DNA from: Deltaproteobacteria bacterium
GTDB lineage: Bacteria > Desulfobacterota > Syntrophobacteria > Syntrophobacterales > Syntrophobacteraceae
Length of the DNA stretch: 40,995 bases
Assembly (NCBI GenBank): GCA_021793275.1
Contig: JAJYTC010000018.1
Span: 1-40,995 of the forward strand
Direction of reading: 5' to 3'
The translations under genes and the position numbers were made by a program. Within the stretch, counting starts at the first letter, position 1. Every line of letters begins with the position of its first letter. The notes below the pieces were generated by a model. It had not been told where the DNA came from. It saw nothing but the letters and a program-made list of their open reading frames with translations, and ran no database searches. Below are positions 5,527 to 14,999 of this stretch, piece after piece.

Positions 5527-6924
5527 TCAGCTTGTTTCCACATCCGAGATGCACAACCGCTTGATCATTCTCTGAAGGGAGGACCGGGGGACGTTGATCT
5601 GCCTGGCCGTAGAGGATATGTTGCCCTTATTTTGGCGCATGGCGTTCACCAGGTACTGCCGGGTAAAGCTGTCCAGGTATCTTTTTCTTACACTGTTAAA
5701 GTCGCCCCCAGGAGGAAGAGCACCGTCGTCGGTGCGCTCACCGCGAATATCGATCATTTTTTCCGGCAGCGATTCGGCTTTGATTACAGGGCCGTCGGAG
5801 ACCACGACCAGATATTGCATCAGATTTTCCAATTCGCGCACATTTCCCGGCCACTCGTAGGCCTGGATCGAAGCGAGTACCTCCTGCCCCAGGGTCAAAT
5901 CCGTTTTTGCGAACTTTTTTTTGAATTTTTCAAGGAAAAAACACGCAAGGAAAACGATGTCTTCCTGCCTTTTCCTAAGAGGCGGGACATCGATCCTGAC
6001 CACGTTCAGACGAAAGAAAAGGTCCTCTCTGAAGCGGCCTTCCCGCACCAGTTCATCCAGGTCCCGATTCGTGGCGGCTATGATCCGGGTATCGATCTTA
6101 ACGGGTGTAGTGCTTCCAACCGGAACAATTTCATAGTCCTGGGCCATTCGCAGAAGCTTGCCCTGGAGGGGCATCGGCAGCTCGGCAATCTCGTCGAGGA
6201 AAATAGTCCCATGGTCAGCCACCTTGAAGAAGCCGTCCTTATTGGCATAAGCTCCCGTAAAGGCACCCTTGGCATACCCGAACAACTCGCTTTCGAGCAA
6301 CGCTTCGCTAAGAGACGCGCAGTCCACGACGACGAAATTGTTCGAACTCCTCGGGCTTGCTCTGTGGATCTTTTGGGCAATGAGGCTTTTACCGGTCCCG
6401 CTCTCTCCCTGGATGAGGACATTACAGTCTATCGGGGCAACCTTTTCGATGAGCTTGGAAACCCTCAGCATTTTGTCGCTTATGCTTACTATGTCACAAG
6501 AATCCGAGCGGGTGTTGAGCTTTTCCTTCAAAAGCTCGATTTCTTCTTTGAGCGAGAATTGCGTCGAGACGTTTTCCACTACTTTCAGCATCTTGTCCAT
6601 GTCGAACGGCTTGGTGAGATAGTCATAGGCGCCCAGCTTAATGGCCTTTACAGCGCTTTCCACCGTGCCGTAACCCGTAATGATGATCAGCTCCGTGCCG
6701 GGACTTATTTCCTTGATCTTCTCAAGCAGTTCTATGCCGTTAAGTCCGGGCATCCGGACGTCGGCAATAACCAGGGCGATGCGCCTGCTTTTGACCATGG
6801 AAAGGGCGGCAATTCCCGAACTTGCCCCTTTAACGGCGTACCCTTTCTTGTGGAGCAGTTGCACACACCTTTTGCGTATGCTCGGATCATCGTCAACGAC
6901 CAGTACCTCGAATCTTTCGTTCAC
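5527..6924 (-). CDS. sigma-54-dependent response regulator (NtrC/AtoC type)
   Basis: This 465-residue enhancer-binding protein has three domains. A receiver (1-120) carries the acidic pocket DDD at 11-13 and the phosphorylated Asp D55 in ADVRMPG. An AAA+ ATPase (about 145-380) has Walker A GESGTGKS, the sigma-54-contacting GAFTGA loop and Walker B-type FLDEIAE. A C-terminal Fis-type helix-turn-helix ends the protein. The start is GTG at 6924 with GGAG 8 nt upstream. It begins 17 nt after the histidine kinase gene, its presumed partner. Its most likely target is the sigma-54 promoter immediately downstream at 5282-5297, and so the aryl-CoA reductase operon. Confidence 0.92.
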   Translation of the reverse strand: MNERFEVLVVDDDPSIRKRCVQLLHKKGYAVKGASSGIAALSMVKSRRIALVIADVRMPGLNGIELLEKIKEISPGTELIIITGYGTVESAVKAIKLGAYDYLTKPFDMDKMLKVVENVSTQFSLKEEIELLKEKLNTRSDSCDIVSISDKMLRVSKLIEKVAPIDCNVLIQGESGTGKSLIAQKIHRASPRSSNNFVVVDCASLSEALLESELFGYAKGAFTGAYANKDGFFKVADHGTIFLDEIAELPMPLQGKLLRMAQDYEIVPVGSTTPVKIDTRIIAATNRDLDELVREGRFREDLFFRLNVVRIDVPPLRKRQEDIVFLACFFLEKFKKKFAKTDLTLGQEVLASIQAYEWPGNVRELENLMQYLVVVSDGPVIKAESLPEKMIDIRGERTDDGALPPGGDFNSVRKRYLDSFTRQYLVNAMRQNKGNISSTARQINVPRSSLQRMIKRLCISDVETS

Positions 6925-6940
6925 CTCGGCTCTCCACCGG

Positions 6941-8488
6941 CTATTCAGTCATTTTCCGCCGTTTGCGCGGCAGGGTGACTACAAAGGACGCTCCGTGACT
7001 TTGGAGGTTTGTCGCCGCAACCGTCCCGCCATGCTCCTCGATTATTTTCTTGCTGACCGACAGTCCCAAGCCTGTGCCTTTGGTTTTCGTCGTAAAGAAG
7101 GAATCGAAGATTCTGCCTATCATGGCGTCCGGGATTCCCTGCCCCGTGTCGCTGATTTCCAGGCAAACCCATTTCTTGCCCTTCGCAGCAACGGCCGAGG
7201 TCTTTATCGTGACCGTCCCGCCTGCCGGGAAGAGGGCGTCACGGGAGTTATTCACCATATTGATTATCACCTGCTGCAGCTGGTTGGAGTTGCCCCACAC
7301 ATGGAGCGGTTTAGCGGAAAAGGCCTTGACAATGGCTATATTGTCCAATTTGGCCTGTCTTTGTATGAGCGTTAAAGCATCTTCGACGGTATCGTTGATA
7401 TTCACCACGCTTTTTCCTTCGGGCACCATTCTGGAGAAGCCCAGGATTTTTTCTATGAACTTCTTGCAGCGAAGGGCGTCATTTTCGATGTCCTTAAGCT
7501 CCTTGAGCAGCTCTTTGCGGTCAATCTGTCCCGCCTTTGCGTCTTCAATCAGCATCTGGACGGCCAAAAGGAGTCCGCTCAGGGGATTATTGACTTCGTG
7601 CGCGATTTCTCCAGCCAGTGTTCCCAGGAGGGTAAGTTTCTCCGACTGATAGAGTTCCTCCTTAAGGACCTTTATCTCCGTCAAGTCGGTTACGGCATTG
7701 ATCATGCCGTCATAATTACCGTTTCTGTAGAGGTATGACGAGCTGATCAGTACAGGTGCTTCCTTATTGTCCTTTGTTACGTATGCGGCCTCGAAGGTCT
7801 TCTTGTCGGGTTCTTTGCCCGGTGTTTCCAGGGCGCTTTTGACCCTCTCCAGAACATTTCGATCCATGAAGCTTTGATAGTGTCTGCCTATAAGCTCGTC
7901 CCTGCTGCGTCCGACGATCTCCTCGAAGCGTCTGTTCGTAAAAGTTATGAGGCCGTCTTTATCGATTATCTGAATGCCGTCGTTTAACGATGTGATGATG
8001 TTTTCGTTAAATTCCCTGAGCCTGTTTACTTCTTTTTCCTCGGTCAGGTCGCGAGCTGCGCCGACCATTGCCATAGGCTCCCCTTTGCGGTCCCGCAGCG
8101 GGATACAGATGACGTAGGCCGGGAATATTTCACCGGATTTTCTTCTAAGCCGGACCTCTCCGCGAAAAGTGTTTCCTTTTCTCATCTCCGCCAAAACGTT
8201 CGGCTTCCTCACCCCCAGTTCGATAATGCTTCGTAGCATAATCTCTTCGGGCTTGTATTCGAAAAGTTCCTCGGAGCCTTTGTTGTAGTACACGATCTTT
8301 CCGTCCAGATCCGTAACGATGATGGATTCGCTCAGATTTCCGAGAACGGTTTCAAGAAAATCCTTCGTCGTCAGTTTAAAACCCAGTATGATGTTTTCCC
8401 AGTCCAAAGTCCCTGTCATACGCCCTGATCCTGCCACAGGCGGCATCCGGAGCGCCACCCGCAGAGCTTCTATAAAAAATGCGGTCAT
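6941..8488 (-). CDS. soluble PAS-domain sensor histidine kinase
   Basis: This kinase of about 515 residues has two or three N-terminal PAS domains, a phosphoacceptor helix with the H-box EIAHEVNNPLSG, and an ATPase domain with an N-box (NMVNNSRDAL), DTGQG and GTGLGLS motifs. No membrane segment is visible, so it should sense a cytoplasmic signal. The ATG at 8488 overlaps the metF stop (ATGA). An alternative ATG at 8419 has a possible AGGA ribosome site and would give about 492 residues; both keep every domain. Being coupled to metF and followed 17 nt later by the response regulator gene, it forms a two-component pair whose signal could be an aromatic acid, its CoA ester, or a redox state. Confidence 0.88.
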   Translation of the reverse strand: MTAFFIEALRVALRMPPVAGSGRMTGTLDWENIILGFKLTTKDFLETVLGNLSESIIVTDLDGKIVYYNKGSEELFEYKPEEIMLRSIIELGVRKPNVLAEMRKGNTFRGEVRLRRKSGEIFPAYVICIPLRDRKGEPMAMVGAARDLTEEKEVNRLREFNENIITSLNDGIQIIDKDGLITFTNRRFEEIVGRSRDELIGRHYQSFMDRNVLERVKSALETPGKEPDKKTFEAAYVTKDNKEAPVLISSSYLYRNGNYDGMINAVTDLTEIKVLKEELYQSEKLTLLGTLAGEIAHEVNNPLSGLLLAVQMLIEDAKAGQIDRKELLKELKDIENDALRCKKFIEKILGFSRMVPEGKSVVNINDTVEDALTLIQRQAKLDNIAIVKAFSAKPLHVWGNSNQLQQVIINMVNNSRDALFPAGGTVTIKTSAVAAKGKKWVCLEISDTGQGIPDAMIGRIFDSFFTTKTKGTGLGLSVSKKIIEEHGGTVAATNLQSHGASFVVTLPRKRRKMTE

Positions 8489-9426
8489 AGCTGTGGTCGG
8501 GGAAGAAGACCGGCCCTTTCCGTGATCTCTCTTACCTTTTCCTCCCATTCGATGGCCATTATATGCACGCCGGAAATACCGGGGATTTCACGCACTTCTT
8601 GTATTTGATCCAGAAGCAGGTTGATTCCCTCCTCAGCCTGGTCGGCCCCGGGAACGCCTCGGATGCGCTTTATGATATCATCGGGGATGGTTATCCCGGA
8701 AACGTTTTTGTTCATGTATGCCGCCATTCCGGCAGACTTTAGCGGCGTCAGTCCGGCAAGGATGTAGCAATGCCGGTCCAATCCCATATCGCACGCCATC
8801 TTCATGAATTCACGGAACCGCTTCATATCGTAGATGCACTGGGTTTGAATAAAATCGGCGCCTGCGTCGATTTTTTTAGCCAACCTGATCACTCTGAACT
8901 CGAAGGGGTCTGCAAAGGGATTGGCCGCCGCGCCCAAAAACATCCGGATGCCGCCCTGGACCGGATCGCCGCTGTTGACCGCGCCACGGTCCCTTATAGT
9001 GCGCACCACGTCGAGGAGTTGGATGGAATCGAGGTCGAAAACATTTTTGGCCATCGGATGATTTCCGAAGCTCTGATGATCGCCGGTAAGGCAGAGCATA
9101 TTGCGGATCCCGAGAGCGTAGGCGCCGAAAATGTCGCTTTGGGCCGCGATCCGGTTGCGGTCTCTTGTAACCATCTGCATGACCGGTTCCACACCGTTTT
9201 TCACCAGAATGGAACTCGCGGCGATGCTCGACATACGAACAACGGCCGTCTGGTTGTCCGTGACGTTGGCCGCATCCACACAGCCCCTGATGAGCCCTAT
9301 TTTCTTTTCGAGATATTCGACATCCGCGCCCTTGGGAGGGCCGCACTCGCATGTGACGGCAAAATGACCCGAGCTTAGCGCCCTCTCGAGATTACTGCCC
9401 GATTTTATAACGCTTTTGTCGCTCAT
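8485..9426 (-). CDS. metF: methylenetetrahydrofolate reductase, MetF
   Basis: This 313-residue FAD-dependent TIM-barrel enzyme interconverts 5,10-methylene- and 5-methyl-tetrahydrofolate. Family features seen include the N-terminal FAVTCECGPPKG strand with its catalytic Glu, a NVTDNQ segment near residue 55, a CLTGDH motif and a GADFIQTQ motif. A ribosome site AAGGAG precedes the ATG. It lies 47 nt after metV, an arrangement known for the acetogen-type MetFV complex of the methyl branch of the Wood-Ljungdahl pathway rather than for stand-alone biosynthetic MetF. The 3' end is coupled to a histidine kinase gene, which is unusual for this enzyme. Confidence 0.9.
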   Translation of the reverse strand: MSDKSVIKSGSNLERALSSGHFAVTCECGPPKGADVEYLEKKIGLIRGCVDAANVTDNQTAVVRMSSIAASSILVKNGVEPVMQMVTRDRNRIAAQSDIFGAYALGIRNMLCLTGDHQSFGNHPMAKNVFDLDSIQLLDVVRTIRDRGAVNSGDPVQGGIRMFLGAAANPFADPFEFRVIRLAKKIDAGADFIQTQCIYDMKRFREFMKMACDMGLDRHCYILAGLTPLKSAGMAAYMNKNVSGITIPDDIIKRIRGVPGADQAEEGINLLLDQIQEVREIPGISGVHIMAIEWEEKVREITERAGLLPRPQL

Positions 9427-9473
9427 AGGCCGTTCTCCTTGCGGATGGCGAAAGGAAGGTTTCCGGATGGTGT

Positions 9474-10157
9474 CTACTTAATATCGTAGAGTTGTTCCCG
9501 GATTGTGCGTCGAACCCCGCCGTCCGCAGCGGTCGACCAGTCTTTGGCGGGCAGAAGGTTCCTGAGGTCGTCCAGCCTTCCCAGCCTCTTTAGCCTGTCA
9601 TAGATGAGTTGCCATACGCACTCGATATTTGCAGGATCGACTTCACACCTGCCCTTTTCAGACCCTCCGCACGGGCCGTTCAAAAGGTGCTTGGAGCAGC
9701 GCGCGACAGGGCATATTCCGCCGGTGCAGGCGATAATACAACTGCCGCACCCTGCGCACATCTCGGCCCAAAGCCCCGGTTGCATTCCGGCCCCGTAGAA
9801 AGTTGTGTCCAGTCCCGGAAATATGGGGGTCTTTCCGAGCCGGTCGGCCAGAAAATTCACCCCCACTCCGCAGGCAAGCGACACGACGGCATCGATCCCC
9901 TCGGATTCCACACGGCTAAGGATCGGCAAGACAAATTCCACGTCGCATTGCCGCTGCACACAGTCTTCAAGGATGGTCTTAGGCCGGCCGTCTTTACCAA
10001 AAGCGATCCGCAAGCCCGATGCGAGGATCTGGACCTCGGCTTCTCCTCCCGAAAGGCAGACCGTAGTGCACGTGCCGCAGCCCACTACCAGGACTTTTTC
10101 GAAATCTTCAACATAGCCCTTAACCTGCAGGAACGGTTTAGGGTCCGCAACAATCAT
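9474..10157 (-). CDS. metV: MetV-type methylenetetrahydrofolate reductase partner subunit
   Basis: This 227-residue protein matches the MetV / MTHFR C-terminal-domain family. It is rich in cysteines. An N-terminal part has GCGTCTTVC near residues 26-34. A C-terminal part has a CAGCGSCIIACTGGICPVARC run and a GPCGG motif typical of the family. In acetogens MetV pairs with MetF and links it to electron carriers; a zinc or iron-sulfur role is expected from the cysteines. The ATG has a strong GAGGAG ribosome site. It sits between the MvhD-fusion flavoprotein and metF, so a three-protein complex is a reasonable inference. Confidence 0.85.
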   Translation of the reverse strand: MIVADPKPFLQVKGYVEDFEKVLVVGCGTCTTVCLSGGEAEVQILASGLRIAFGKDGRPKTILEDCVQRQCDVEFVLPILSRVESEGIDAVVSLACGVGVNFLADRLGKTPIFPGLDTTFYGAGMQPGLWAEMCAGCGSCIIACTGGICPVARCSKHLLNGPCGGSEKGRCEVDPANIECVWQLIYDRLKRLGRLDDLRNLLPAKDWSTAADGGVRRTIREQLYDIK

Positions 10158-10190
10158 AGCGAATCTCCTCGGTTTATCTGCAGTAACCCT

Positions 10191-12290
10191 TCAATTGGTA
10201 ACTGGTGTTTCCATGTTTACTGCTCGAAATTCTTCCCATATCCGGGGCCAGGATTCATCCCCGCCGCCATCCATTTTGAAAAGCTGCAGCTTGTCCGCTC
10301 CGACTCCGATTTGGTCCAGATATTTCCGCGTGCGCTTGATTCGCCTGCCAAGCCATTCTTCGACCCTCGGGTAGTAACAGCCGTCTTCAGGGCAGGAAAT
10401 CACGGCGACCCTGTCCGCTCCCAGTTCGAAAGGTCTGAGAAGATCCACCATGCTGAGCCGCCCCACGCATGGAACGATCACGCGAAGAACACCCGAATCC
10501 CGGATTTCCTCCCCGGGCTGCTCTCTCAGATACTTCCTGCCCGTCGTCCCGTTCAGGCAGCAAAAAGAAACCAAAAAGGGCCTGGCAACCTTCTCGAGGT
10601 CCAGCCCGGAGACAATCGCCCTGAGGGCCTTTTTGACGGCGCTGGTTGGAAACCTCCAAACATCTATTGCGAAGGCCGGGCATTCCGCCGCGCACAAGCC
10701 GCAGGTCTGGCATTGCCGGGCAGGCATAAACGCCATCCTTCTCACCTGCGCCACCCCGAACGGGCAGATACGCACACAGGTAAGACAACCGGCACAGTGG
10801 TTCGGAAACTCGAGATGCGCGCCTGTTGCACAGGCAAGGCAACGCCTGGATTCGGAGAGCGCTTCCTCTTCGCTGTATCCCGGCTCGATAGGAGAAAAAT
10901 CCTTGATTCGTTCGGCCGGGTCGGCCAGATCGACTCCAATCCGTTCGAAGCGCCTGGCCAGAGCGGCAGTCGCCGCCGGCAGCTCGCCTATGCTTTGGAT
11001 TTTTCTGTGGGGCAGCTTGAGGATCTCCCCCGTTTCGAGATAGTGAGATACGACCTTGGCGGCCTCATGCCCTGTCGCCACCGCCTGAATGGCCGAGCCG
11101 GGACCGCTCACGACCTCGCCGCACGCGAATACGCCGCGTTCGGATGTGGCCATCGATTCTCTATCGCATAGGAGCCGTCCGCCCGAAACGGCGACAGGCG
11201 TATGGGTAAGGAAATCCAGGTTCGCTTTCTGGCCGATTGCAAAAATGACGCTGTCGACTTCGATACGGGTAGTCACCGACTCGTCATAGACGGGACTAAA
11301 TCGGTGCTGATCGTCAAAAACGCTGCTGCAGCGTCTTAATGCAACGCCGGCGACCGCGCCGTCCTTTTCCACAATCGCCTTCGGGCCCCAAGAATTGAGG
11401 ATTTCAATCCCTTCCTCTTCGCCTTCTTCTATTTCCCATTTCCATGCGGGCATTTCTTCGCGGTTTTCCAGGCAGGCCATGGAAACCTTCTTGGATGGCC
11501 CCAACCGTTTTGCGGCCCTGGCGATATCGATTGCCACATTGCCGCCGCCAATCACAAGCACGCGCTCTCCCAGCTGGGGGTATAACCCGTTTGCAACGTC
11601 CCAAAGAAAGGTGACGCCAAGGAAAACTCCTTTGCTCCCCGTCCCTGGAATTGGCAGGGAATGGCTTTCGGAGAGGCCGACCGCTATGAGGATCGCGTCG
11701 TTTTCTTTCTTCAGCTCCTCGAATGAAATATCGACGCCCACGCAGCATCCGCTATGGACCTCGATGCCGGTGGCCAGAATGTCTTCGATGTCTTCGGCAA
11801 GGGCCTCGGCGGGAAGGCGGTATCGTGGGATGGCATGAGCGAGCATCCCCCCCAGCCTGGTGTCCTTTTCATAGACCCTCACCCGGTACCCTCGAAGCGC
11901 CAGATCCATGGCGGCAGTAAGCCCTGAGGGGCCTGCACCGATAACGGCCGCCGTCTTGTCGCTTTTCACCACGGCTTTCCTGCGGCGGGCAATACGGTAT
12001 TCTCTTGTATTCTCCACGACGAAGCGCTTGAGCATCCTGAGGCTTACCGCCTGATCGATCGCCGTTCTACGGCATTGGGATTCACACGGATGATGGCAGA
12101 TACGACCGCACACGGAGGGAAACGGATTTACCTCGAGCAAAACGTCAAGAGCGCCCTCGTAGTCGCCCCTGCTTATACGCTGCACATATTCGCGGGTGTC
12201 GGTGTGGACCGGACAGGCGGCCGAACATGTGGGAAGCGCGCCGGCGGTTAAAACCTGTAAAGAAGCCGGGGAACTTTTATCCATTGCCAT
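10191..12290 (-). CDS. GltD/NfnB-like flavoprotein fused to ferredoxin and MvhD domains
   Basis: This protein of about 699 residues has several parts in order. The N-terminal GltD-type iron-sulfur region has C22 and C26, then C61, C65, C69 and C73. The FAD fold shows VIGAGPSGLT near 117, and an inserted nucleotide-binding fold shows VIGGGNVAID. A 2x[4Fe-4S] ferredoxin segment with CAGCLTCVRICP and CQTCGLCAAECP is next. Last comes an MvhD-like domain (about 590-699) with FCCLN, PCVGR and CPEDGCYYP. MvhD normally passes electrons to heterodisulfide-reductase-like modules. With MetF and MetV next door, a role as NAD(P)H-linked electron donor, possibly bifurcating, is inferred. The start at 12290 is chosen for its AGAGGA ribosome site; a longer form from 12335 lacks one. 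Confidence 0.85.
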   Translation of the reverse strand: MAMDKSSPASLQVLTAGALPTCSAACPVHTDTREYVQRISRGDYEGALDVLLEVNPFPSVCGRICHHPCESQCRRTAIDQAVSLRMLKRFVVENTREYRIARRRKAVVKSDKTAAVIGAGPSGLTAAMDLALRGYRVRVYEKDTRLGGMLAHAIPRYRLPAEALAEDIEDILATGIEVHSGCCVGVDISFEELKKENDAILIAVGLSESHSLPIPGTGSKGVFLGVTFLWDVANGLYPQLGERVLVIGGGNVAIDIARAAKRLGPSKKVSMACLENREEMPAWKWEIEEGEEEGIEILNSWGPKAIVEKDGAVAGVALRRCSSVFDDQHRFSPVYDESVTTRIEVDSVIFAIGQKANLDFLTHTPVAVSGGRLLCDRESMATSERGVFACGEVVSGPGSAIQAVATGHEAAKVVSHYLETGEILKLPHRKIQSIGELPAATAALARRFERIGVDLADPAERIKDFSPIEPGYSEEEALSESRRCLACATGAHLEFPNHCAGCLTCVRICPFGVAQVRRMAFMPARQCQTCGLCAAECPAFAIDVWRFPTSAVKKALRAIVSGLDLEKVARPFLVSFCCLNGTTGRKYLREQPGEEIRDSGVLRVIVPCVGRLSMVDLLRPFELGADRVAVISCPEDGCYYPRVEEWLGRRIKRTRKYLDQIGVGADKLQLFKMDGGGDESWPRIWEEFRAVNMETPVTN

Positions 12291-12668: not shown

Positions 12669-13538
12669 ATGTACACAATTTTGGAAAAACAGGTTTTGAG
12701 CGATGTGACCAAACTTATGGTCGTCGAGGCGCCGCAGGTAGCCCGCAAAGCCAGGGCGGGGCAGTTCATCATCGTGCTCATGCACGACCAGGGCGAGCGT
12801 GTTCCTCTAACCATTGCCGACTATGACAGGACGGCAGGCACGATCACACTCATTTTCCAGGAAGTGGGCAAATCGACGAAGGAAATGGGGACCATGAAGG
12901 TGGGGGACTCATTCAGTCATGTTGTCGGCCCGCTCGGACACCCGACCGACATAGAAAACTACGGCGAGGTCATCTGCGTAGGAGGCGGCGTGGGGATCGC
13001 TCCTGTCTATCCGATTGCGCGCGAACTCAAAGAGGCAGGAAATCACGTCATCTCGATCATAGGCGCAAGGACGAAGGAACTTCTGCTTTGGGAAGACAAG
13101 ATGCGCGCGGTCTCAGACGAACTCATCGTCACGACCGACGACGGATCGTACGGTCGAAAAGACCTTGTGACGGTGCCTCTCAAGGAAATTCTCGACAGCC
13201 GCCCCGGGAAGATAGCAAAGATATGGGCGATCGGACCGGCCATAATGATGAAGTTCGTCGCCGCAACGACAAAGCCGTATAATGTTCCGACAATCGTCAG
13301 CTTGAACACCATAATGATCGATGGGACGGGGATGTGCGGGGGCTGCAGGGTCGTTTTGGACGACGGCGCCAGGTTCGTGTGCGTCGACGGCCCCGAGTTC
13401 GACGCTCACAAGGTTGACTGGAACAATCTTTTGTCGCGCCTGGCCTTTTACCGCAACGAGGAACAGACGGCGGTTCAACGCTTCGAAAAGGACCACGAGT
13501 GCAATCTGGATCGCGCAATCTCGAATGGAGTAAGATAA
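12669..13538 (+). CDS. nfnA: NfnA: FAD/[2Fe-2S] subunit of NADH-dependent ferredoxin:NADP+ oxidoreductase
   Basis: This 289-residue protein belongs to the ferredoxin-NADP reductase-like family (also called SudB or DHOD electron-transfer-like). A FAD-binding barrel is followed by a nucleotide-binding domain with VGGGVGIAP at 104-112. The C-terminal [2Fe-2S] motif has C223, C226 and C238 plus D218, matching the unusual three-Cys-one-Asp ligation known in NfnA. The ATG at 12669 is preceded by AAGAGGA and begins exactly at the conserved N-terminus; an upstream in-frame extension to 12525 is not family-like. Its stop abuts the nfnB start. With NfnB it should couple NADH and reduced ferredoxin oxidation to NADP+ reduction by flavin bifurcation. 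Confidence 0.9.
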   Translation: MYTILEKQVLSDVTKLMVVEAPQVARKARAGQFIIVLMHDQGERVPLTIADYDRTAGTITLIFQEVGKSTKEMGTMKVGDSFSHVVGPLGHPTDIENYGEVICVGGGVGIAPVYPIARELKEAGNHVISIIGARTKELLLWEDKMRAVSDELIVTTDDGSYGRKDLVTVPLKEILDSRPGKIAKIWAIGPAIMMKFVAATTKPYNVPTIVSLNTIMIDGTGMCGGCRVVLDDGARFVCVDGPEFDAHKVDWNNLLSRLAFYRNEEQTAVQRFEKDHECNLDRAISNGVR

Positions 13539-14999
13539 ATGGCACAATTAAGCCCGAAAGAACGCATGAAGATACCCCGTCAGGAAATGCCTGTGCAGAC
13601 GCCCGAAGACAGGGTGCAAAACTTTCAGGAAGTGGCGCTGGGTTACACCTTGGAGCTTGCAAAACGGGAGGCTGAACGCTGCCTTCAGTGCAAAGAGCCC
13701 CATTGTATGGAAGGCTGTCCGGTCGAAGTCAGGATTCCCGAGTTTATCAAAGCCGTACGCGACGGCGACATGGCCGAAGCGGTAAAGATAATGAAAGACA
13801 AAAACAACCTGCCGGCCATTTGCGGCAGGGTCTGTCCCCAGGAAGTGCAGTGCGAGTCGCGTTGCATTCTGGGAAAGAAAGGCGAACCGGTCGCAATAGG
13901 CCGAATCGAGCGATTCGTGGGCGACTACGAGCTTTCGAACAAAACCTTCGAGTTAGCCAAGGGACCGGCAACAGGGAAAAAAGTCGCGATAATCGGCTCG
14001 GGGCCTGCGGGCATCACCTGTGCGGTAGACCTTGCCCGCATGGGTCATGAAGTCACCATCTTCGAGTCTTTGCATACTCCGGGCGGCGTGCTCGTCTACG
14101 GCATTCCCGAGTTCAGGCTCCCCAAGGAAAGCGTTATCAAGGCCGAAATTGAAACGGCGGCAAAGGCCCTCTCCATTCGCATACTCACCGATTATGTAAT
14201 AGGGCGCACTCTTACAATCGATGAACTGCAGGCCGAATACGACGCCATTTTCCTTGGCACCGGAGCAGGGCTTCCGATGTTCATGCGCATTCCGGGGATC
14301 AATTTGAACGGGGTCATGTCCGCAAATGAATTCCTCACCAGATCCAATTTGATGAAAGGCTACCGGTTCCCTGAATTCGACACCCCGCTCAAGGTGGGAA
14401 AAAGAGTCGCGGTCATCGGCGCGGGCAACGTCGCGATGGATGCTGCGCGCTCCGCCCTTCGGCTTCAGTCCTTAAAGGCCGGCAGAAACGGCGACCAGGC
14501 CGAACCCGGCTCGGAAGTCCATATAGTCTATCGCCGCTCCTCGGCGGAGGTGCCCGCCAGGCTTGAAGAAGTCCATCACGCCAAGGAGGAAGGGGTCATT
14601 TTCGACTTTTTGACCAATCCGGTCGAAATCCTGGGCGACGAAAAGAATGCTGTGCGCGCGATGCGCTGCATTCGAATGGAACTGGGGGAACCCGACCAGT
14701 CCGGCCGCCGCAGCCCTGTTCCAATCCAGGGATCGGAATTCGACATGGAGGTGGACGAGGTGATCTTTGCCCTCGGGACCAGCCCGAACCCGCTGGTTTT
14801 CACAAATGCCGGAGGCCTCGAGCGCTCCAAGCATGGAACGGTTGTAGCCGACCAGGAGCACGGGCGCACCACGATAAAGGGTATTTGGGCAGGCGGCGAC
14901 GTCGTAACGGGCGCCGCAACGGTCATAAGCGCAATGGGAGCTGGAAAGCGCGCCGCCGCAGATATCGACCGATATCTGAAAGGCGAATTCGACTGGTAG
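13539..14999 (+). CDS. nfnB: NfnB: FAD/[4Fe-4S] subunit of NADH-dependent ferredoxin:NADP+ oxidoreductase
   Basis: This 486-residue protein resembles the glutamate synthase small subunit. Cluster cysteines are C48, C51, C56, C60 and C95, C99, C105, C109. The FAD site is IIGSGPAGIT at 151-160, and the NADPH site VIGAGNVAMDAARS lies in an inserted Rossmann fold. GltD and NfnB share this fold, but the directly preceding nfnA (no gap; ribosome site GGAG inside the nfnA end) and the lack of a glutamate synthase large subunit favour NfnB. It is a clear paralog of the N-terminal half of the divergent MvhD-fusion protein. Confidence 0.9.
   Translation: MAQLSPKERMKIPRQEMPVQTPEDRVQNFQEVALGYTLELAKREAERCLQCKEPHCMEGCPVEVRIPEFIKAVRDGDMAEAVKIMKDKNNLPAICGRVCPQEVQCESRCILGKKGEPVAIGRIERFVGDYELSNKTFELAKGPATGKKVAIIGSGPAGITCAVDLARMGHEVTIFESLHTPGGVLVYGIPEFRLPKESVIKAEIETAAKALSIRILTDYVIGRTLTIDELQAEYDAIFLGTGAGLPMFMRIPGINLNGVMSANEFLTRSNLMKGYRFPEFDTPLKVGKRVAVIGAGNVAMDAARSALRLQSLKAGRNGDQAEPGSEVHIVYRRSSAEVPARLEEVHHAKEEGVIFDFLTNPVEILGDEKNAVRAMRCIRMELGEPDQSGRRSPVPIQGSEFDMEVDEVIFALGTSPNPLVFTNAGGLERSKHGTVVADQEHGRTTIKGIWAGGDVVTGAATVISAMGAGKRAAADIDRYLKGEFDW

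Follow-up and report, generated by a model that had tools for sequence, protein, structure and literature searches.

A GltD-ferredoxin-MvhD fusion encoded with MetV and MetF is a candidate NAD(H) input for methylene-THF reductase

Here, we describe a three-gene cluster that probably encodes, as we in part infer, an NAD(H):methylene-THF oxidoreductase that works in both directions without electron bifurcation, and with it a type of MetVF methylene-THF reductase (MTHFR) that would be new. The cluster lies in a stretch of 40,995 nucleotides from a deltaproteobacterium of the Syntrophobacteraceae (hereafter the window) and joins MetV and MetF to a GltD-ferredoxin-MvhD fusion protein. Judged from its sequence, this fusion most likely links methylene-THF reductase to the cellular NADH pool, and it would take the place of the large heterodisulfide-reductase complex on which some acetogens rely, in what is apparently an undescribed arrangement. 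The physiological electron donor of MetVF MTHFRs is a long-standing question in Wood-Ljungdahl energetics (PMC8760232).

The initial annotation placed a MetF-MetV pair with a GltD-MvhD fusion at 8485-12290; all three genes are found there, on the minus strand and in the transcription order fusion, MetV, MetF, and Pfam confirms their domains. The fusion (10191..12290; 699 residues from an ATG start, with an alternative longer reading from a TTG start that extends to 12335) carries Fer4_20, Pyr_redox_2, a Fer4 dicluster and FlpD. MetV, the Fe-S/Zn subunit (9474..10157, 227 residues; PF12225, 4.9e-35), adjoins MetF, the flavin subunit (8485..9426, 313 residues; PF02219, 7.9e-43), which is the pairing that marks a MetVF-type MTHFR. 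The genes are 33 and 47 nt apart, which suggests a single operon. A search for a sigma-54 promoter gave 19 matches against 17.8 expected, with nothing convincing 5' of the fusion gene. Directly 3' of MetF, and possibly in the same operon, Pfam identifies a PAS histidine kinase (6941..8419, minus strand), followed by a sigma-54 type response regulator (5527..6924, minus strand), hinting at dedicated regulation; among close relatives only L007 has the kinase in the equivalent position, and the regulator is likewise present there. Regulator genes 3' of MetF, at 5527-8419 in the window, also occur in L069 and at locus C190 of the source genome. On the other side, the divergent NfnAB genes (12669..14999, plus strand; 12669-13538 and 13539-14999; NCBIfam/Pfam) encode a separate enzyme, and are kept beside the triplet in L006, L007, L008 and L011.

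HdrABC had been called absent, which holds around the triplet but not for the source genome, where HdrA-MvhD and HdrCBA-MvhD accompany other MetV genes. Its five MetV loci have four kinds of electron-input genes: MvhD-MetV-MetF (C184), HdrA-MvhD-MetV-MetF (C190), HdrC-HdrB-HdrA-MvhD-MetV-MetF with a 1461-residue HdrA that contains an internal GltD domain (C13), the fusion triplet studied here (C26) and a long MetF-MetV protein (C57). Another genome, G182, has three kinds of MetV electron-input genes.

Three parts make up the fusion: a GltD-like FAD/NAD(H) domain, permuted and with two [4Fe-4S] sites, a two-cluster ferredoxin and a C-terminal MvhD/FlpD domain with four cysteines. The permutation places the segment with the first two cluster cysteines behind the FAD domain, unlike in NfnB, and phmmer aligns fusion residues 457-488 to NfnI 15-46. 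Across 49 distinct fusion sequences, 16 cysteines in the GltD and ferredoxin parts never vary, among them those of residues 483-523 (10722..10844, minus strand), a segment that holds C484, C487 and the start of the ferredoxin dicluster. An AF2 model built from a 44-sequence alignment (pLDDT 87, pTM 0.88; a 14-row alignment gave a poor model, pLDDT 63) superposes on NfnABC and StnC across residues 16-589 (VIA Z 47); the VIA and Foldseek lists are filled by the GltD part, so these matches do not cover the MvhD part. The earlier label, NfnB/GltD-like, is right in that a GltD-like FAD and nucleotide-binding domain is combined with a ferredoxin dicluster, but the domain is of the permuted StnC/DsrL/NfnABC kind. 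Identity as a plain NfnB was rejected, as the cluster ligand, the YRR motif and the domain order all differ. With NCBIfam NF009410 (PRK12771) the fusion scores 449.8 bits, below the curated cut-off of 516.

The initial annotation had considered bifurcation; would the GltD flavin bifurcate? StnC, whose FAD does not bifurcate, has a lysine as ligand of the FAD-proximal cluster, whereas bifurcating NfnB has a glutamate at this position (PMC10482914). The window fusion has the lysine, K88 (codon 12027..12029, minus strand), a predicted ligand equivalent to StnC K170 and present in all 49 fusions; the window's own NfnB has the glutamate. This replacement speaks against bifurcation, and so does the absence from the locus of an HdrA flavin domain and of a HydBC-like partner. 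A bifurcating or confurcating enzyme, in which NADH would be linked to methylene-THF and ferredoxin alike, with ferredoxin docking at the dicluster and either the GltD FAD or the MetF flavin splitting electron pairs, is thus unlikely in our judgment, even though the fusion has two ferredoxin-type clusters, all 49 sequences keep Arg158 (its counterpart in NfnB contacts FAD N5), and the Moorella-type MetVF-HdrABC-MvhD complex has been proposed to bifurcate (PMC8760232).

The MvhD/FlpD domain starts at about residue 571 (10191..10580, minus strand; PF02662, 2.3e-14), and its cysteines 578, 608, 633 and 638 are kept in 47 of the 49 fusions. In the two exceptions, L050 and L051, the fusion adjoins MttB and RACo genes and MetV is elsewhere, behind HdrA and MvhD. 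In L066 (7716-9764) and L067 (7330-9372) the MvhD part of the fusion lacks three of the four cysteines, and genes for an MttB-type methyltransferase and RACo are adjacent. For the GltD-ferredoxin relatives that lack MvhD (L122-L125), the source genomes have MetV on another contig (two) or no MetV (two). In MetV itself most cysteines are invariant among 60 sequences.

Which nucleotide would feed the enzyme? NfnB binds the NADPH phosphate through a Y-R-R motif. In the alignment of 49 fusions its place is taken by CLE in 43, including the window's C273-L274-E275 (codons 11466..11474, minus strand), while YRR stands in six (L117-L121, L055). Kinetics of DsrL enzymes show strict dependence on NADP(H) where YRR is present, and use of, or preference for, NAD(H) where it is missing (PMC7596348), which predicts that the window fusion favours NAD(H) over NADP(H). 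The Rossmann motif of the fusion is GGGNVA, for which the GXGXXA rule used in PMC12054007 would assign NADP; we let the DsrL rule outweigh it because that rule was measured. Large GltD-containing proteins (L056-L064) mostly have CLE as well, so the motif marks a type of GltD, not the fusion family alone. The proposal of a compact, NAD(P)H-fed module coupled through MvhD thus survives in its outline, a NAD(P) site, a conserved triplet and MvhD as the probable coupler, and is refined to a predicted use of NAD(H) by CLE in place of YRR.

The NADH couple has a standard potential of -320 mV. With that of methylene-THF/methyl-THF at about -200 mV (PMC9430772), NADH-driven reduction would be exergonic by ~23 kJ/mol under standard conditions and would need no second donor, whereas the reverse direction requires a pull by methylene-THF dehydrogenase, as in type III enzymes (PMC8760232). 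In the mechanism that we propose, NADH would reduce the non-bifurcating FAD of the GltD domain, from which single electrons would pass along four [4Fe-4S] clusters, two in the GltD part and two in the ferredoxin, to a [2Fe-2S] cluster in MvhD. The MvhD domain would dock onto MetV/MetF and hand electrons through the MetV clusters to the MetF flavin, which would reduce methylene-THF to methyl-THF in a reversible reaction. In Sporomusa pull-downs MvhD brings down MetF, and MetV brings down HdrA (PMC9430772); by analogy, MvhD may contact MetF in the triplet. The complex would serve the Wood-Ljungdahl pathway, reductive or oxidative, in bacteria with dissimilatory sulfite reductase.

How widely is the triplet conserved? 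A peptide-pattern scan of one genome per species (84,980 species) returned 28 full-length or near-full-length relatives of the fusion (L006-L033), a count that is a lower bound. They share 66-81% identity with the window fusion in Deltaproteobacteria, including Syntrophobacteraceae, and 41-46% in Nitrospirota. The order fusion-MetV-MetF is found in 25/28; L028 ends at a contig edge, and L012 and L017 lack MetV. A profile survey of 297 genomes of the window's phylum, Desulfobacterota, and 245 Nitrospirota genomes found a full-length fusion in eight of the former, with MetVF adjacent in five and the fusion away from MetV in G195, G240 and G006, and a fusion in 24 of the latter (the G371 copy being truncated by its contig). 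In 21 of these 24 Nitrospirota carriers MetV lies 3' of the fusion and in the same orientation, mostly within 1.5 kb and at 3.4 kb in G344; two others are cut by contig ends, and G297 lacks MetV. The triplet order is thus conserved in two phyla, and the concern that it might not recur in other genomes, raised with the initial annotation, does not apply. Chance co-location was rejected on the same counts. Spacers between fusion and MetV measure 3.0 kb in L030 (8997-12041) and 1.2 kb in L129 (13509-14668), and their common stretches are 82-88% identical.

These counts bear on two further readings. The fusion could be the NADH dehydrogenase of another pathway that merely sits beside a ferredoxin-fed MetVF of type II, which does reduce methylene-THF with reduced ferredoxin in vitro (PMC8760232); the gene order kept over two phyla and three fusion lineages, the single MetVF per genome in Nitrospirota and the tight operon spacing make this very improbable. 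The fusion could also be a general adapter from NADH to diverse acceptors, with MetVF one client besides methyltransferase activation, Hdr-like proteins or free ferredoxin. G297 and G298 (L012 and L017, Thermodesulfovibrionales) encode full-length fusions with all ligands and have no MetV or MetF in their assemblies, although G297 has acetyl-CoA synthase; together with the Desulfobacterota genomes in which the fusion lies away from MetV, they indicate that it can serve elsewhere, and the MttB and RACo neighbours in L066 and L067 fit such a role. We nevertheless give this reading little credence, since MetV is adjacent in nearly all Nitrospirota carriers and the loss of MvhD cysteines in L050 and L051 looks as if the domain were useless away from MetV. 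An NAD(H)-linked MTHFR remains our preferred reading.

The surroundings of the triplet in Nitrospirota point to the pathway that it may serve. There the gene order is cooC, 5-formyl-THF cyclo-ligase, folE, folD, fusion, metV, metF, panB, and on longer contigs (L128, L129) panB is followed by a cooC-like gene, acsE, acsD, acsC and acsB, with folD missing from L128 as called. MetV is single-copy in each of the 21 Nitrospirota carriers with adjacent MetV, and MetF in 20 of 22 carriers, with two copies in G366 and none in G379; G300 and G301, reached via other loci, have one of each. Acetyl-CoA synthase was found in 21 of the 22 Nitrospirota carriers searched. Given this gene context, the sole MetF and the acetyl-CoA synthase, the triplet is likely the MTHFR of the Wood-Ljungdahl pathway in Nitrospirota. 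In each of the 14 carriers tested, dsrA scores above cut-off, a count for which no base rate was taken, so respiration of sulfate or sulfite, or else sulfur oxidation, is probable in them. Ca. Sulfobium mesophilum Nbg-4 (L022) carries the triplet; the Wood-Ljungdahl pathway of Ca. Sulfobium mesophilum is expressed in rice paddy soil (PMC5812927).

A GltD tree, built with the NAD site left out, places MvhD fusions at three positions, with relatives that lack MvhD between them: L117-L121, L053-L055 and a 32-row clade that includes the window's fusion (support 99); the branches are long, so the number of lineages is uncertain. One lineage has YRR, one is mixed and the window's has CLE, and MetVF stands beside each. 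Either multiple origins of the fusion or repeated loss of MvhD may explain this pattern, and there is an even chance, in our estimate, that MetVF is a hub that repeatedly recruited GltD-ferredoxin-MvhD adapters. In the MetV tree, HdrA-linked and fusion-linked MetV are mostly apart; the separating branch has weak support (55/78) and C13, whose MetV is HdrCBA-linked, groups with Nitrospirota MetV, so we draw no conclusion on co-evolution. Several variants occur. In the YRR lineage a gene that by eye resembles purD lies between MetV and MetF (L126, 8057-10257; L127, 6729-8030), joined in L126 by a dehydrogenase-like gene. L130 (517-8633) and L131 (8022-15834) encode NuoG-like and NuoE-like proteins and a NuoF-GltD fusion (1023-1045 residues) directly 5' of MetV and MetF, a module that resembles the HydBC/Stn bifurcating modules and is a candidate for a truly bifurcating MTHFR. 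L045 has a second, divergent MetF-like gene without MetV (10799-11671) upstream of HdrA-MvhD-MetVF genes, and similar extra copies occur in G302, G303 and G182.

The triplet shares features with several known systems. With the type IV (Hdr-type) HdrCBA-MvhD-MetVF enzymes of Moorella and Sporomusa it has MetV, MetF and an MvhD domain in common, and Moorella HdrA, which itself contains a GltD domain, oxidises NADH (PMC9430772, PMC8760232). However, the triplet lacks the HdrA flavin domain, HdrB and HdrC and has MvhD fused to a GltD-ferredoxin protein, and membership of type IV was rejected: MvhD accompanies MetVF, but the cluster has no HdrA, HdrB or HdrC. Type III, MetVF-RnfC2 of Acetobacterium woodii, likewise has a dedicated NADH module and is reported to be non-bifurcating (PMC8760232); that module is RnfC-like, unrelated to GltD and without MvhD, and no RnfC-like domain or gene was found in the fusion or among the neighbours scanned. 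The large subunit of StnC/NfnABC resembles the fusion in its permuted GltD, its lysine ligand (in StnC) and the ferredoxin clusters that follow, but StnC continues into NuoG/FdhF-like domains and has StnAB partners, all of which the triplet lacks, and is without MvhD or MetVF. DsrL combines a GltD core with a C-terminal two-cluster ferredoxin, and its YRR status tracks NADP(H) or NAD(H) use (PMC7596348); it differs in having DsrAB as partner and no domain after the dicluster, where MvhD follows in the fusion. In HdrL of Desulfobacterium autotrophicum, an HdrA-glutamate synthase fusion, GltD is joined to Hdr-type parts with MvhD encoded beside (PMC2702500), but HdrL is large and contains HdrA, and HdrL1 adjoins DsrABC genes. 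In the literature searched, which has MTHFR types I-IV, we found no description of a GltD-MvhD fusion with MetVF, an absence that is not proof of novelty; PMC9304861, on the Bfu family, mentions neither MetF nor methylene-THF.

In conclusion, the triplet would be a fifth MTHFR type and a fifth kind of electron input to MetVF. Its three genes would make an enzyme with a built-in predicted NAD(H) site, compact enough to express and assay, and in many Nitrospirota they contain the only MetVF. If our reading is true, it would fix the redox carrier, and hence the energy balance, of the methyl branch for the organisms that carry it.
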